Positions 7,184 to 33,664 of a stretch of DNA of 64,000 nt are shown piece by piece; the first letter of the stretch is position 1, and each line of letters begins with the position of its first letter. Location of the stretch: NCBI RefSeq assembly GCF_003390845.1, contig NZ_QMEK01000004.1, positions 62,001 through 126,000 of the forward strand. The letters run 5' to 3'. A model generated the notes under the pieces. The model was not told where the DNA came from. It searched no databases and was given only the letters and a program-made list of their open reading frames with translations. The stretch comes from Tropicimonas sp. IMCC34043 (GTDB lineage Bacteria; Pseudomonadota; Alphaproteobacteria; Rhodobacterales; Rhodobacteraceae). Made by a program: the position numbers and the translations under genes.

Positions 7184-9361
7184 TCAGAGGATGGTGACGA
7201 ACGGCGGGCCGTCGACGATCCGACCGATCCGGGCGGCGGCAAAGCCCAAGGCCCGTAGCCGTTCGAGCCGGTCTTCCGCGGTCTCTGGCGCAACCGCTGC
7301 CAGAAGCCCGCCCGCAGTCTGCGGGTCGAACAGCAGATCGGCGCGCGGTCCCTCGGGCAGGGTCATCCGCGCGGCGACGGCGCGGTTCGCCGGATAAAGG
7401 GTCGACCGGATCCCACCGGCCGCCAGCGCCTCGGCGCCGTCATAAAACGGGATCGCGTCCAGTTCGAGTTCGGCACCCGTGCCTGATGCGTCGCAGATCG
7501 CCATCAGATGTCCGGCCAGCCCGAACCCTGTGACATCGGTCATGGCGCGTGCACCCGTCAGCACCGCGGCTGCGTCCCCCTGCGGACGGCGCATCGCGGC
7601 AAGCGCGGCCAGCACATCCGCACCCCGCGCCTTGCCCTGCATTTCGCCGGCAAGGATCGTGCCGCTGCCGATCGGCTTGGTCAGCAGCAGGACGTCGCCC
7701 GGACGGGCGCCGCCCAGCGTAATCGGCGCGGCGGCGGCAAGGCCCGTCAGGGTGAAGCCAAGGGTCAGTTCGGCCCCGATGCTGGTGTGGCCGCCGACCA
7801 GATCGGCGCCTTCGGCGCGGAATACCTCGGTTGCGGTATCGAGGATCTCGCGCAGGGTCGCGGCCTGCATCTGCTCGGCCATCCGTGGCAGGATGATCTG
7901 GGCAAGCGCTGCCTGCGGGCTTGCCCCCATGGCCCAGATATCGCCAAGTGCATGGACCGCGGCGATCCGGGCGAAGGTAACCGGATCTTCGGTGAAGGCG
8001 CGCAGATGGTCGGTGGTCAGCACCTGGGTTTCGCCGCCGATCCGCAGAACGGCCGCATCGTCGCCGGGCCGGGTCAATACGTCGGCGCGCAGGGGCGGCG
8101 GCAACCGGTCGAGCGCAAATTTCAGGCTGGCGCCCGCAAGCTTTGCGCCGCAGCCGCCACAAAGCGGCGTGTCGCCCAGAACCGCCTCGATCCCTCTGGC
8201 GCGCGGGCTCGGCAGGGCAGGCTCGGCCATCGCGGGCAGGGCGCGGAACTTATCCATGAACCTGCGGTCGATCCTGTCCTTCCACAGCCACAGACCGGGG
8301 AGGGACAGGCTGCGCCCGCCCTTGTCGGCAAGCGCCGATTTCCCGCCAAGCGAGATCAGCTTCAGGTAATCCTTTTGCGGCCGGAACCGGCGCGGGCGCG
8401 TGCCGGCAAGCTCGGCCCTGAGGTTCGCAAACAGGATCGGGGCGGCCCGCACCGCATAGACCCCTGCCTTGGGACGCGGGGCAAAGCCGAGATGGGCGCA
8501 GTCGCCGCTGGCAAAGACCGCGGGATCGGAGGTGCTACGCAGGTGTTCGTCGACGCAGATATAGCCCTCGTGGCTGTCGAGCCCGAGCCTGCCGATCCAG
8601 TCGTGCGGCCGCGCGCCGGCGGCACCCAGAACGAAACTCGATGGAATGAGCCGACCGTCGTCGAGCACCACGCCCTCGGCGGTGACCTCGCGGAGCGCGC
8701 AATGTTCGATCAGCCCGATCCCGCGTCTGGTCAGCATGGCACGCAGTCGGGTGCGGGTTCCGGGCGCAACGGCGCCAAGCGCCTCTGCCGCGTCAAGCAG
8801 GGTGATCTCGGGGCGAACGCCCCGCGCGGCGACGCGGTGCTGCATGGCAAGTGCAAGCTCCACGCCGGCGACGCCAGCGCCGATGATATTGATCTGCGGC
8901 GCCACGGTGCCTGAGGTCAGCCGGGCAAGCCAGTCCTCCCAGGCGGCAACGAACCGGTCCAGCGGCTTTGCGGCCACGGCATGGGCGACAAAACCGGGCA
9001 GATCCGGCAGCGACGTTGTAATGCCGACGTCGATCGACACTACGTCATACCGGATCTCGGGCCAGCCTTGCGCGCGCACCAGCTTGCGCTGGAGGTCGAT
9101 GCCGAAGACCGGCGCGGGCACGAACCGCGCCCCGGCAAAACGGGCGAGCCTGACGAGGTCGATATCGAGCTGTTCCAGCCTGTAGTGCCCGGCGATATGC
9201 CCCGGCAGCATCCCCGAATAGGGCGCGGTCGGCCCGGGGTTCATCAGCGTCAGCCGCACGCCGGGCAGCGGATTCATCCCCCACATTCGCAGCAACAGCG
9301 CATGGCTGTGCCCGCCGCCCACAAGGACGAGATCGCGGATCAGGGGAAGTGCGCCTTGCAT
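7184..9361 (-). CDS. selD: Fusion of an NDH-2-like FAD oxidoreductase with selenide, water dikinase SelD
   Basis: A 725-residue two-part protein. Residues about 8-370 are a pyridine-nucleotide-disulphide oxidoreductase of NADH dehydrogenase type, with an N-terminal dinucleotide motif VGGGHSH, a second one IIGAGVAGVELALAM, and a C-terminal FAD motif around VFASGDCAHL. Residues about 395-720 are SelD, which makes selenophosphate from selenide and ATP. The active-site segment is CGGCGAK, with cysteine rather than selenocysteine, and the ATP-binding acidic residues are in PGDDAAVL and LTTDHLRAFTED. This fusion is known in several bacteria; the flavoprotein may generate or channel reduced selenium, which is an inference. 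The ATG at 9361 is chosen over an upstream frame extension because the first beta-strand begins there. Its neighbour is selU. Confidence 0.93.
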   Translation of the reverse strand: MQGALPLIRDLVLVGGGHSHALLLRMWGMNPLPGVRLTLMNPGPTAPYSGMLPGHIAGHYRLEQLDIDLVRLARFAGARFVPAPVFGIDLQRKLVRAQGWPEIRYDVVSIDVGITTSLPDLPGFVAHAVAAKPLDRFVAAWEDWLARLTSGTVAPQINIIGAGVAGVELALAMQHRVAARGVRPEITLLDAAEALGAVAPGTRTRLRAMLTRRGIGLIEHCALREVTAEGVVLDDGRLIPSSFVLGAAGARPHDWIGRLGLDSHEGYICVDEHLRSTSDPAVFASGDCAHLGFAPRPKAGVYAVRAAPILFANLRAELAGTRPRRFRPQKDYLKLISLGGKSALADKGGRSLSLPGLWLWKDRIDRRFMDKFRALPAMAEPALPSPRARGIEAVLGDTPLCGGCGAKLAGASLKFALDRLPPPLRADVLTRPGDDAAVLRIGGETQVLTTDHLRAFTEDPVTFARIAAVHALGDIWAMGASPQAALAQIILPRMAEQMQAATLREILDTATEVFRAEGADLVGGHTSIGAELTLGFTLTGLAAAAPITLGGARPGDVLLLTKPIGSGTILAGEMQGKARGADVLAALAAMRRPQGDAAAVLTGARAMTDVTGFGLAGHLMAICDASGTGAELELDAIPFYDGAEALAAGGIRSTLYPANRAVAARMTLPEGPRADLLFDPQTAGGLLAAVAPETAEDRLERLRALGFAAARIGRIVDGPPFVTIL

Positions 9362-29425: not shown

Positions 29426-30688
29426 ATGCGGCGAGTGGTTGTCACCGGCTTGGGGATGGTTTCGCCTCTGGCATGTGGCGTCGAGGAGACCTGGGCGCGA
29501 CTTCTGGCCGGAGACTCCGGCGCCGGCCCCATCACCCGTTTCGATGCATCGCGATTGGTGACGGCCTACGCCTGCGAAGTTCCCTATGGCGACGGAAGCG
29601 ACGGCACCTTCAATCCCGACGACTGGATGGAGCCGAAGGATCGGCGCAAGGTTGGCGATTTCATCCTTTATGCCGTTGCGGCGGCCGATCAGGCCGTGCG
29701 GGATTCGGGCTGGATGCCGGAGGACGAGGAAAGCAGGGAGCGGACCGGTGTGATGATCGGTGCCGGGATTGGCGGGCTGACTTCGATCGCCGAGACAGCG
29801 GTGCTGATCAAGGAAAAGGGTCCGCGGCGGGTTTCGCCCTTCTTCATCCCCGGCGCGCTGATCAATCTGGCCAGCGGCCATGTCAGCATCCGCTTTGGGT
29901 TCAAGGGGCCGAACCATGCCGTGGTGACGGCCTGTTCGACCGGAGCGCACGCAATCGGCGACGCATCGCGGCTGATCATGCTGGGCGATGCCGACGTGAT
30001 GGTCGCAGGCGGCACAGAGAGCCCGATCAGCGAGATCGGGATCGCCGGGTTCAACGCCTGCAAGGCGCTGTCGACCAAATACGCCAACGACCCGAGCAGC
30101 GCGAGCCGGCCGTGGGATGCCGACCGCGACGGGTTCGTCATGGGCGAGGGGGCCGGGATCGTGGTGCTGGAGGAATACGAACACGCGCTGGCGCGCGGCG
30201 CCAAGATCTATGCCGAAGTGCTGGGATACGGGATGTCGGGGGATGCCTATCACATCACCGCGCCGGCCGATGATGGCAACGGCGGCTTCAGGTCGATGAC
30301 CGCGGCCCTGACGCGGGCCGGGCTGACGCCGGGCGACATTGATTATATCAACGCCCACGGGACCTCGACCATGGCCGACACGATCGAGTTGGGCGCGGTG
30401 GAGCGACTGCTTGGGGATGCGGCGAGCAAGGCCACCATGTCCTCGACCAAATCCTCGATCGGGCATCTGCTGGGCGCGGCCGGGGCGGTGGAGGCGATCT
30501 TCTCGATCCTTGCGATCCGCGATCAGGTTGCGCCGCCGACGATCAACCTCGATACTCCGCCCGACGGGGTGCGGATCGATCTGGTGGCCAATGCGAAGCG
30601 CGAGCGCGAGATCAACACCGTGATGACCAACAGCTTCGGCTTCGGTGGCACCAATGCCACTCTGGTGCTGGGAAGGGCTGTGGCCTGA
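29426..30688 (+). CDS. fabF: 3-oxoacyl-ACP synthase II FabF
   Basis: Chain-elongating condensing enzyme. 420 residues, thiolase fold: MRRVVVTGLGMVSPLACG, catalytic cysteine in VTACSTGAHAIGDA, histidines in NAHGTSTMADT and KSSIGHLLGAAGAVEA, and C-terminal NSFGFGGTNATLVL. The ATG at 29426 is preferred to the GTG at 29420 because GAGG lies 7 bases before it. The stop overlaps the mltG start (ATGA-type). Confidence 0.97.
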   Translation: MRRVVVTGLGMVSPLACGVEETWARLLAGDSGAGPITRFDASRLVTAYACEVPYGDGSDGTFNPDDWMEPKDRRKVGDFILYAVAAADQAVRDSGWMPEDEESRERTGVMIGAGIGGLTSIAETAVLIKEKGPRRVSPFFIPGALINLASGHVSIRFGFKGPNHAVVTACSTGAHAIGDASRLIMLGDADVMVAGGTESPISEIGIAGFNACKALSTKYANDPSSASRPWDADRDGFVMGEGAGIVVLEEYEHALARGAKIYAEVLGYGMSGDAYHITAPADDGNGGFRSMTAALTRAGLTPGDIDYINAHGTSTMADTIELGAVERLLGDAASKATMSSTKSSIGHLLGAAGAVEAIFSILAIRDQVAPPTINLDTPPDGVRIDLVANAKREREINTVMTNSFGFGGTNATLVLGRAVA

Positions 30689-31842
30689 TGGCCAGGTCCA
30701 TCGCGTCGAATGCGCTGACGATCTTTGTCGTCCTGCTGCTCGGGGTGGCCAGCGCGGTAATCTGGGGCAATCGTGAATATTCCGGCTCTGGTCCGCTGGC
30801 CGAGGCGATTTGTGTTCAGGTGCCCACGGGTGCCTCGCTGGGCTCGGTCTCGCAGGCGCTGAAGGCGCAGGGTGCGATCAGCAGCCCGACGATCTTTCGG
30901 CTGGGCGCGGAATACAGCAAGCGGTCGGATCTGTTGAAAGCAGGCAGTTTCGTGGTGCCTGCCCACGCCTCGATGGAAGAGATCATCTTAGCCATCACGG
31001 CGAGCGGTCGCAGCACCTGTGGCACCGAAGTGAATTATCGGATCGGGGTGGCGATGGCCGATATGATCGTGCGCGATCTCGACCCGGCGACCCAGAAGTA
31101 CGAGGAAGTTGCGGATATCGACATCGGAGTCGATCCGGTACCGGCGGAAGTCCTCGACATTCTGGCCGAGCCGAGCACGCGGATCCGTGTCACGCTGGCC
31201 GAAGGCGTGACGAGCTGGCAGGTGGTCGAGGCGCTGAAGGCGGCGCCGTTCCTTTCCGGCGAACTGGCGACGGTGCCGGCCGAGGGAGCGCTGGCGCCCG
31301 ACAGCTATGAGGTCGGGCGCAATGCCGACCGTGCTGCGCTGGTGGCGCAGATGGAGACGCGACAGGCGGATATTCTGGGCGATCTTTGGGCCGCGCGGGC
31401 GCCGGGGCTGCCCTACGAGACGCCGGATGAGGCGCTGACCATGGCCTCGATCGTCGAGAAGGAAACCGGCGTTGCCGAGGAACGTCCGCTGGTTGCGAGC
31501 GTCTTCGTCAATCGTCTGGAGCAGGGCATGCGGCTGCAGACCGACCCGACGGTGATCTATGGCGTCACCGGAGGCAAGGGCGTGCTGGGGCGCGGGTTGC
31601 GGCAGAGCGAACTGGCGAAGGCCACGCCCTACAACACCTATGTCAATCGCGGGTTGCCGCCGACGCCGATTGCCAACCCGGGCCGGGCGTCGATTGCGGC
31701 GGCGTTGAATCCGGCCGAGAGCGACTATCTGTTCTTCGTGGCCGACGGCAGCGGCGGGCACGCCTTTGCCGCGACGCTGGTCGAGCACAACGCCAACGTC
31801 AACCGTTGGCGGGCCATCGAGGCGCAGCGGGCCAACCAGTGA
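30688..31842 (+). CDS. mltG: Endolytic murein transglycosylase MltG (YceG-like)
   Basis: An inner-membrane lytic transglycosylase that cuts nascent glycan strands and is proposed to set their length. 384 residues: one N-terminal helix (about 8-27), a LysM-like segment (PTGASLGSVSQALKAQG), then the YceG domain with the catalytic glutamate in ASIVEKETGVAEER and the landmarks LQTDPTVIYG, YNTYVNRGLPPTPIANPG and YLFFVADGSGGHAF. The gene overlaps fabF by one base; a fabF-mltG pairing is common. Confidence 0.95.
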   Translation: MARSIASNALTIFVVLLLGVASAVIWGNREYSGSGPLAEAICVQVPTGASLGSVSQALKAQGAISSPTIFRLGAEYSKRSDLLKAGSFVVPAHASMEEIILAITASGRSTCGTEVNYRIGVAMADMIVRDLDPATQKYEEVADIDIGVDPVPAEVLDILAEPSTRIRVTLAEGVTSWQVVEALKAAPFLSGELATVPAEGALAPDSYEVGRNADRAALVAQMETRQADILGDLWAARAPGLPYETPDEALTMASIVEKETGVAEERPLVASVFVNRLEQGMRLQTDPTVIYGVTGGKGVLGRGLRQSELAKATPYNTYVNRGLPPTPIANPGRASIAAALNPAESDYLFFVADGSGGHAFAATLVEHNANVNRWRAIEAQRANQ

Positions 31843-31896
31843 AAGTGTTTAATATTCAGTAACCTGGCGTACGCTGCCCAATGCGGACGGTGCAAA

Positions 31897-31916
31897 GTTC
31901 GCTTGACTTTGCGAAC
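31897..31916. promoter_or_regulatory. Palindrome overlapping the -35 box of the GTA promoter
   Basis: GTTCGC-N8-GCGAAC, a 6-bp inverted repeat whose spacer contains the TTGACT -35 hexamer. The position is that of an operator or activator site. It does not match a LexA (GTTC-N7-GTTC) or CtrA (TTAA-N7-TTAA) box. The binding protein is unknown; GTA regulators are an inference only. Confidence 0.5.
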
Positions 31917-31931
31917 GGTCCAATGTAGAAA
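31903..31931 (+). promoter_or_regulatory. Strong sigma70-type promoter upstream of the GTA cluster
   Basis: TTGACT (31903-31908), a 17-base spacer and TAGAAA (31926-31931). This is the best -35/-10 match I found in the window, in an AT-rich pocket between mltG and the first GTA gene. Transcription should begin near 31938, about 100 bases before the small terminase ATG. Confidence 0.65.
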
Positions 31932-31955
31932 ACAAGCAAGCTGGAAGACGTGGGC

Positions 31956-31985
31956 AAGCGCCGGACCGATGGTCCCGGCGCTTTT
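31956..31985 (+). terminator. Rho-independent terminator in the GTA leader
   Basis: A 9-bp stem AAGCGCCGG (31956-31964)/CCGGCGCTT (31975-31983) with an extra inner ACC/GGT pairing, followed by TTTTCTGTTTG. It lies between the promoter at 31903 and the small terminase gene at 32041. It may end mltG transcripts, produce a short RNA of about 50 bases from the promoter, or act as a control point for GTA expression. Confidence 0.75.
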
Positions 31986-32040
31986 CTGTTTGTCCCATTT
32001 CGCTCGTGCGGAGGAGCATGAGAAAGAGCAGGTTCAATCA

Positions 32041-32382
32041 ATGGATAATTCTATGGCGCCCGTGCCGGCGGGCGATGACGCTGGTCAGTTTTTCGACCAG
32101 GCCGTCGAGCTTTATCGCAGCAGCTCGCGGGAGCTGACCGAGATCATTCGCGAGGTCGGCCTGGGCAAGACCGAGCGCGCCAGGAAGCTCTCCCCGGTTC
32201 TGTCCGAGATCCGGAAGGCATCGGTCACCATGATGGAGGAGGCAAGGCATGTCGAAGACCTTCGCCGCAGACTCGTCGGGAATGTTCATCAGCAGGCTCT
32301 CGACCTTGCCGGGGCCCGCGATGAGATCGGGAGCCGAATGGCTCGTCTGCGCGCCGCACGAGGTGCAGCAGGAATTTCTTGA
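32041..32382 (+). CDS. GTA small terminase-like protein (gp1)
   Basis: 113 residues, mostly charged alpha-helix, with no catalytic motif. By position, as the first gene before the large terminase, and by its pattern (QAVELYRSSSRELTEIIREV, then EEARHVEDLRRRLVG, then LAGARDEIGSRMARLRAARG) it corresponds to RcGTA gp1, the small terminase that presents DNA to the packaging motor. GTA small terminases lack strong sequence specificity, consistent with near-random packaging. The start could be the ATG at 32041 or the one at 32053; the former is kept as the longer plausible form. It overlaps the large terminase gene. Confidence 0.8.
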   Translation: MDNSMAPVPAGDDAGQFFDQAVELYRSSSRELTEIIREVGLGKTERARKLSPVLSEIRKASVTMMEEARHVEDLRRRLVGNVHQQALDLAGARDEIGSRMARLRAARGAAGIS

Positions 32383-33664
32383 CGGGCTGAGCGGCAACGC
32401 ATTGTGTGCACTGCCCTGGCTGTTCGAGTTCTGGGCCATGCCCCACCAGTTGCCCCCCCGGGGCGACTGGAAGACATGGGTGATCCTTGGCGGGCGCGGC
32501 GCGGGCAAGACCCGCGCCGGGTCGGAATGGGTGCGAAGCCAGGTCGAGGGGGCGGGCCCGGACGACCCGGGTCTTTGCCGGCGCGTCGCGCTGGTTGGCG
32601 AGACGGTCGAGCAGGTGCGCGAGGTGATGATCTTCGGCGACAGCGGGATCCTTGCCTGTTCGCCGCCAGATCGCCGCCCGGAATGGCAGGCGACGCGCAA
32701 GCGGCTTGTCTGGCGCAACGGGGCGGTCGCCCAGGTGTTTTCGGCCCATGATCCCGAGAGCCTGCGGGGCCCGCAATTCGACTGTGCCTGGGTCGACGAA
32801 CTGGCGAAGTGGAAAAAGGCCGAGGAGGCCTGGGCAATGCTGCAGTTCGGACTGCGGCTGGGGGAGAACCCGCGGCAATGCGTGACCACGACACCGCGGG
32901 ATGTCGCGGTCCTGAAGGAGCTGTTGGGGCGGGCATCGACAGTCGTCACTTCGGCCCCGACCGAGGCGAACCGGGCCAATCTGGCGGCGAGTTTTCTTGA
33001 AGAAGTCCAGGCGCGTTATGCCGGGACGCATCGCGGACGGCAGGAACTGGACGGCGAGCTGATCGAGGAGGTCGAAGGGGCGTTGTGGACTGCCGCGGCC
33101 ATCGAGGCTGGGCGGGTCGACCGGGCGCCAGAGCTTGACCGGATCGTGGTCGCGATCGATCCGCCGGTCACGGGCCACAGGGGGTCGGACGAGTGCGGCA
33201 TTGTCGTCGTTGGCGTCGTCATGACGGGCAGGCCGCGGGATTGGGAAGCCTATGTGCTGGAGGATGCAAGCCTGAGTGCTGCCTCGCCGCTGGCCTGGGC
33301 GCATGCCGCTGTTGCGGCGCGAGACAGGCATGGCGCCGACAGGCTGATCGCTGAGGTCAATCAGGGTGGCGATCTGGTGCAGGCATTGTTGAACCAGATC
33401 GACCCGATGCTGCCGTTCCGGGCGGTGCGGGCGCAGTTCGGCAAGGCGGCTCGGGCCGAGCCTGTTGCCGCGCTCTATGAGCAGGGACGGGTGCACCATC
33501 TGCGCGGGCTTGGCGTGCTTGAGGACCAGATGTGCCGGATGAGGGTCAGGGGCTACGATGGCAGGGGCTCGCCCGACCGGGTTGACGCGCTGGTCTGGGC
33601 GCTGACCGAGCTGATGATCGAGCCGGCCGGAGAGTTCCGCCGGCCGGGGATCCGGGCGCTTTAG
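32321..33664 (+). CDS. GTA large terminase (gp2)
   Basis: ATP-driven DNA packaging motor and nuclease. About 447 residues from the ATG at 32321. The N-terminal ATPase has Walker A LGGRGAGKTRAGSEW and Walker B-like FDCAWVDELAKWKK, with coupling motif VTTTPRD. The C-terminal RNase-H-like nuclease has its first aspartate in VVAIDPPVTGHRGSDECG and a later one in PDRVDALVWALTELM. Start choice is open: the frame is open to 32249, where AGGAGG lies 6 bases before an ATG but would give a 134-base overlap with gp1; a GTG at 32363 would give a 20-base overlap. I chose 32321 from the expected length of the region before LPWLFEFW. Confidence 0.93.
   Translation: MRSGAEWLVCAPHEVQQEFLDGLSGNALCALPWLFEFWAMPHQLPPRGDWKTWVILGGRGAGKTRAGSEWVRSQVEGAGPDDPGLCRRVALVGETVEQVREVMIFGDSGILACSPPDRRPEWQATRKRLVWRNGAVAQVFSAHDPESLRGPQFDCAWVDELAKWKKAEEAWAMLQFGLRLGENPRQCVTTTPRDVAVLKELLGRASTVVTSAPTEANRANLAASFLEEVQARYAGTHRGRQELDGELIEEVEGALWTAAAIEAGRVDRAPELDRIVVAIDPPVTGHRGSDECGIVVVGVVMTGRPRDWEAYVLEDASLSAASPLAWAHAAVAARDRHGADRLIAEVNQGGDLVQALLNQIDPMLPFRAVRAQFGKAARAEPVAALYEQGRVHHLRGLGVLEDQMCRMRVRGYDGRGSPDRVDALVWALTELMIEPAGEFRRPGIRAL

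Follow-up and report, generated by a model that had tools for sequence, protein, structure and literature searches.

A sigma70-like promoter and an intrinsic terminator, both of which we consider real, precede the first GTA gene (g1) in the 64,000-nucleotide stretch of Tropicimonas sp. IMCC34043 DNA analysed here (contig NZ_QMEK01000004.1, positions 62,001 to 126,000; hereafter the window). Judged by sequence comparison, promoter and terminator are one conserved leader unit of GTA g1 in the Rhodobacteraceae. It is probable, in our estimation, that this leader acts as an antitermination gate for the GTA cluster, opened by GafA and representing a variant of the GafZ system of Caulobacter. Established here, and behind the proposal, are the conserved anatomy of the leader, a covarying terminator tied to both promoter and g1, and a gafA gene in the genome; published GafA binding in R. 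capsulatus and GafZ antitermination in Caulobacter support it by analogy. The features of the locus are listed in Table 1.

Table 1. Features of the GTA leader and its neighbours in the window (positions of the window; a full stop marks features without strand).
Feature	Position	Strand	Basis or remark
mltG (YceG-like), upstream neighbour	30688..31842	+	relatives; Pfam YceG
CtrA-like TTAA-N7-TAAC upstream of promoter	31849..31863	.	pattern search in leaders
6-bp palindrome GTTCGC-N8-GCGAAC	31897..31916	.	arms 31897-31902 and 31911-31916; without conservation
-35 hexamer TTGACT	31903..31908	+	sequence; leader conservation
Spacer element CGAACGGTC between -35 and -10	31912..31920	+	conserved; proposed site of the GafA C-terminal (GafZ-like) part
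-10 hexamer TAGAAA	31926..31931	+	17 nt from -35; leader conservation
Terminated leader RNA, ~50 nt, predicted including its start	31938..31987	+	motif and terminator position
TGGAAG, -10-like element of the initial transcribed region (family TRGAAG)	31942..31947	+	column conservation
Intrinsic terminator stem-loop AAGCGCCGGACC-GAT-GGTCCCGGCGCTT	31956..31983	+	sequence; conservation; covariation
Terminator T-run TTTTCTGTTT, overlapping stem end	31982..31991	+	sequence
Second hairpin CTCGTGC-GGAGGA-GCATGAG, between terminator and g1	32003..32022	+	conserved
g1, GTA small terminase	32041..32382	+	named by position and relatives
g2, GTA large terminase	32249..33664	+	Pfam Terminase_6N, 6C

Taken alone, the window promoter is a modest match to consensus (5/6 positions in the -35, 4/6 in the -10). 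A consensus promoter scan of the region, which requires T as the last -10 base, returned no promoters, and the same scan did not list the window hairpin as a terminator, with four others listed where 1.2 were expected. Since the scan listed neither, comparative support was needed for both promoter and hairpin. Within the genus, the large terminase gene was present in all nine genomes searched, and the leaders share TTGACT, CGAACGGTC, GTAGAAA, GCTGGAAGA and a hairpin with T-run whose arms change together. A terminase match was found in 264 of 295 genomes of the family. From these searches 137 leaders were assembled (nine from the genus, 28 loci from the terminase search and 100 fetched regions), drawn from the better-scoring terminase matches with a few near contig ends skipped. 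A two-block motif of promoter and initial transcript, seeded on the genus and then refined on matches, scored above 18 in 118 of the 137 leaders; the median of the real scores was 63, a value flattered by refinement on the same leaders, and the reverse strand of these loci gave -15.7 at best. Some strict hairpin with T-run lay anywhere between mltG and g1, its position left free, in 13 of the 19 leaders below the cut, and none in the other six. Search patterns written for a wider scan matched 0 to 25 of the 137 leaders in early versions and up to 96 later. The preliminary description had placed a sigma70-like TTGACT-17-TAGAAA promoter ahead of g1, and that is where the conserved motif lies; its weight comes from this conservation rather than from the consensus match alone.

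Column counts across the 118 leaders show where conservation is concentrated. The -35 columns, in TTGAC order, are T 118, T 117, G 118, A 117 and C 115, and within the spacer four columns have C 106, G 115, C 118 and G 108. A conserved spacer element is therefore present in the promoter of the first GTA gene, and it differs from the palindrome reported for Caulobacter. Early in the predicted transcript, the TRGAAG columns (T 118, G 115, A 94, A 106, G 110) form a -10-like element, possibly a sigma-dependent pause site. The whole 5′ part of the leader RNA preceding the stem is conserved almost as well as the promoter.

The hairpin and T-run, described earlier as lying about 50 bases past the start, also proved to be a conserved unit in that position. 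The window example is not striking in itself, its T-run being less perfect than those of most relatives and the fold energy of the short RNA only mildly better than that of shuffles (z -1.6). Among the 119 leaders above a slightly lower motif cut (16), however, a strict hairpin with T-run occurred in 111, against 8 of 357 control windows placed at random in the same loci, and in the 111 the stem ended 44–58 nt past the predicted start. In an alignment of 37 of these hairpin leaders, 90.1% of the cells were paired, a percentage inflated by selection of the leaders for a hairpin; double changes, which are less affected by that selection, were seen in 8 of 12 pairs. None of 500 shuffles reached an equally high value by any measure. 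At the sequence level, a terminator is present downstream of the promoter of the first GTA gene.

A covariance model (R1) found the leader in 211 of the 295 family genomes, or 210 of 294 sampled genera, and matched two R. capsulatus genomes and R. viridis at 67–72 bits. More than one match occurred in only seven of the 211 genomes, the extra matches being weak (24.1–31.2 bits), and the model revealed no second strong copy elsewhere in any of them. Among 289 genomes of the class there were seven matches, two of them within the family at 78–86 bits and the other five at 23.9–28.5 bits; strict filters were used in both large scans, with the loss of weak matches. No model match was obtained in 84 of the 295 family genomes, of which 55 have a strong match to the large terminase gene (terL). 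Searches of plasmids gave no match to the leader. Large-terminase relatives in phages were all below 60% identity, viral contigs, most of which end close to the terminase, having been left out. Rfam covered the window with two tRNAs only, no leader or riboswitch family reaching its gathering threshold.

The conserved spacing bears on whose terminator this is. A simpler reading offered in the preliminary description was that the hairpin ends mltG transcripts and that the GTA promoter lies elsewhere, and in a scan of the window the interval from the end of mltG to the promoter indeed contained no further T-tailed hairpin, save one at 31883–31902 whose tail overlaps the -35. However, the leader starts 52 to 637 nt past the mltG stop (89 leaders) whereas the spacing of stem and promoter is fixed, and therefore the terminator belongs with the promoter. 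The unit also occurs at loci, such as L029–L031, without an mltG match in about 1.1 kb upstream. Moreover, in R. capsulatus SP108 (L257), R. capsulatus DSM 1710 (L258) and R. viridis (L259), mltG is followed by a hairpin and T-run of its own, then the promoter, then the leader terminator. Given the variable distance and these separate mltG terminators, a role of the hairpin in ending mltG transcripts was rejected, and the simpler reading as a whole is disfavoured as extremely improbable.

The earlier proposal of a regulator binding a palindrome over the -35 fared less well than that of the promoter it covers. The sequence GTTCGC-N8-GCGAAC is present as written, yet when the 66-nt promoter stretch was shuffled 1000 times, 14% of the shuffles contained an exact 6-bp inverted repeat with a spacer of 3–12, as did 16% of 2000 windows of 66 nt drawn at random from the same DNA. 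Genome-wide there is one exact copy, and allowing up to one mismatch gives 43 copies, close to the 36 obtained with the reversed pattern as background. The left arm, GTTCGC, is missing in all eight other genomes of the genus and within the genus occurs only in the window genome; the right arm is conserved, though as part of another element, CGAACGGTC. Five or six of the six arm positions were complementary in 3 of 118 leaders, the window leader counted, and mean arm complementarity was 1.88 against 1.78 (sd 0.07) under permutation in the same 118. Aligning leaders across relatives, as had been suggested, thus bore out conservation of the hairpin and not of the palindrome. With the left arm not conserved and occurrence at chance level, the palindrome was rejected as an operator, and on comparative grounds it is probably a product of chance.

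The window genome encodes GafA, matched at 208.8 bits, as a 380-aa protein with DUF6456 at residues 234–370. A CtrA-type TTAAC-N6-GTAAC lies some 65 bp upstream of the probable gafA start codon (at 802; locus L155:722-802), and the same kind of site is printed upstream of R. capsulatus gafA in the account of PMC6363796. By hand cross-reading, DUF6456 at E<=1e-30 was found in 204 of the 211 genomes with a model match against 59 of the 84 without one. Gel shifts in R. capsulatus placed GafA binding 76–125 bp upstream of g1 (PMC6363796), and the C-terminal part of GafA is described as binding the same fragment (PMC9638019). Counted from the g1 start at 7625, the bound interval is L258:7500-7549, mapped here on DSM 1710, where spacing may differ by about one base from that in the published strain SB1003, as a printed primer suggests. 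It spans the inside of the -35, the spacer element, the -10, the start site, GCTAGGAGAGGTGGGCA and the first base of the stem. The RNA-seq interval given for the transcription start in R. capsulatus (PMC6363796) contains the predicted start of the leader RNA. As the spacer element CGAACGGTC falls inside the GafA-bound interval, we infer that it is itself the GafA site.

These findings suggest the following sequence of events. RNA polymerase would start, presumably constitutively, at the sigma-70 promoter with its consensus-like -35, and transcription would normally end at the hairpin some 50 nt later, yielding a short RNA. GafA is made by a minority of cells; there, its C-terminal DUF6456 part, which resembles GafZ, would bind the conserved spacer element, and GafA may then load onto a polymerase that pauses soon after initiation, possibly at TRGAAG. 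Polymerase so loaded would pass the hairpin into g1 and on through the whole cluster. Gating by antitermination had been raised beforehand and is the best mechanism on present evidence, GafZ being a reported antiterminator and GafA binding the same stretch in R. capsulatus.

The Caulobacter system supplies both the closest parallel and the main objections. In Caulobacter the protein homologous to the GafA C-terminus is GafZ, for which antitermination and a binding element in the -35/-10 spacer have been reported (PMC11150451). Its promoter, PgtaT of Caulobacter crescentus, thus resembles the leader promoter described here in being that of a GTA cluster, with a GafA-homologous activator, a protein-binding element between -35 and -10 and a terminator to bypass. 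PgtaT differs in being weak (-35 AATCAT) and dependent on GafY and IHF, whereas the leader has a consensus-like -35, and in its terminator, which according to that paper consists of three 150-bp repeats after the first gene rather than a simple hairpin about 50 nt from the predicted start and ahead of g1. When PgtaT was given a near-consensus -35 it no longer needed GafYZ to be active, though its activity was then about sixfold lower (PMC11150451). Since the -35 of the leader is of this consensus-like kind, control at termination is the economical reading. Against the gate, the Caulobacter system would, by analogy, argue for partial control at initiation, its promoter being weak and GafY- and IHF-dependent and its terminator lying beyond the first gene. 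The 19 leaders below the motif cut, the 55 strong-terL genomes without a model match and 7 of the 211 model-positive genomes without a gafA match also count against it. In the text of PMC11150451, antitermination by GafA in R. capsulatus is put forward as a suggestion, GafA sites are described as not mapped at nucleotide resolution, and predicted GafZ structures are said to resemble no known antiterminator.

An alternative is that GafA acts at initiation only, through omega and sigma, with the terminator as a passive brake on leak that is overrun on induction. In R. capsulatus GafA is explained by recruitment via the RNA polymerase omega subunit, a GafA-omega interaction being described alongside promoter binding (PMC9638019), and GafY with IHF activates the weak Caulobacter promoter (PMC11150451); a TTAA-rich element also lies upstream of some leaders. 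A consensus-like -35 would nevertheless leave transcription constitutive under such control, as the altered Caulobacter promoter illustrates, and the fixed position of the hairpin together with the conserved spacer element suggests more than a brake. We regard this alternative as unlikely. The R. capsulatus RcGTA promoter carries the same leader, found in both R. capsulatus genomes, and the RcGTA papers, as far as their available text goes, explain GafA by omega recruitment and not by a terminator; the word "terminator" has no occurrence in the main texts of PMC6363796 and PMC9638019. No description of this leader terminator was found in the portions searched of the open-licence GTA literature.

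Upstream of the promoter, a CtrA-like pattern lies within 100 nt in 38 of 118 leaders, nine of which belong to a single genus; after one shuffle of each, none of the 118 has it. Positions near -54 or -26 relative to the -35 are frequent, and by eye many leaders show an extended TTAA...CCGTACGGTTA block in this region. Downstream, the likely start of g1 is the ATG at 32041; read upstream, its frame meets no stop as far as 31903, passing through promoter and terminator (159 codons counted from a TTG).

A 7-bp hairpin at the position of the second hairpin occurred in 78 of the 111 leaders, against 20.3 expected from shuffles, with loops starting GGA or GGG in 40 of the 78. Its conservation past the terminator is what would favour relief of the leader hairpin by some other signal (a ligand, an RNA-binding protein or translation), with the second hairpin as part of a switch. 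The consensus fold of the alignment, however, gives the terminator stem only, and no Rfam leader family reaches threshold in the window; such a switch seems very unlikely.

Layout offers a further comparison. The lambda promoter pR' is known for an early pause, the terminator tR' and the 6S RNA. The leader resembles the pR'/Q/tR' arrangement in its element between -35 and -10, its -10-like motif early in the transcript and a terminator soon after, and is much shorter than lambda 6S. The spacer element and TRGAAG would together complete a pR'/Q-like layout, Q-like loading itself being an analogy. Among GTAs, antitermination reportedly controls Bartonella BaGTA, to go by the title of a 2025 study by Korotaev, so that the likeness is that of a GTA under antitermination; BaGTA belongs to a different GTA lineage. 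The Q element of lambda is likewise located between -35 and -10 (PMC11150451).

Genomes in which the GTA cluster has decayed fit the gate less comfortably. Cross-tables of terL, leader and gafA, read by hand from result rows, gave a leader in 186 of the 241 genomes whose terL match was strong, in 18 of 21 with a weak, truncated-type match (best E 1e-41 to 1e-91), in 0 of 2 with poorer matches (4e-10 and 8e-4) and in 7 of the 31 lacking one. Wherever the model found the leader in a genome with a weak or absent terL match (25 cases), gafA is retained as well. Fifteen such loci were inspected (13 of the 18 with weak terL and two of the seven with none); because they were chosen as model-positive, retention of the leader in 15 of 15 is circular. 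Thirteen genomes (L161–L165 and L168–L175) have lost a large internal part of the GTA cluster but keep both the leader and gafA. A near-identical junction, from terL codon ~185 to codon ~715–733 of g15 (identified by GTA_TIM and Rcc01698_C), is shared by 11 of the 13 deletions, and in nine of the 13 loci terL and g15 are fused in one open frame that exceeds 800 codons, counted from stop to stop. In these nine frames pN/pS was 0.21–0.51 for the terL part and 0.41–0.65 for the g15 part, values which include any history before the deletion. At L166 the cluster is almost wholly lost, with mltG, an intact leader (86 bits), a short open frame and remnants followed by cysE; L167 ends at a contig edge and carries no information on deletion.

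The leader and gafA, being kept where the cluster is largely deleted, therefore outlive the particle genes. Their persistence does not fit an antitermination gate. It would reflect either a useful fused gene that GafA continues to control or a separate function of the leader RNA. One form of the latter is that the ~50-nt RNA is a trans-acting small regulatory RNA, the GTA being merely downstream. The conserved 5′ part of the RNA and the presence of the leader both in the weak-terL genomes and at L166 speak for such an RNA, yet the retention of gafA in all 25 genomes ties the leader to GafA, and no short leader RNA is reported in the titles and opening lines of abstracts of the GTA literature on small RNAs and transcription starts. 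We consider a purely trans-acting role doubtful. A more tentative synthesis, itself rather unlikely, is that the leader is a standing Rhodobacteraceae unit, a constitutive promoter with a terminator yielding a ~50-nt RNA whose role is independent of particles, and that in genomes bearing a GTA, GafA antitermination reuses this leader as an on-switch. If so, the RNA might for example tune GafA or act in trans, and would be kept together with gafA after loss of the GTA.

Taken together, the leader bears on why RcGTA-type particles arise in few cells and on how GafA works. With a terminator resolved to the base and a candidate binding site, antitermination by GafA becomes directly testable.
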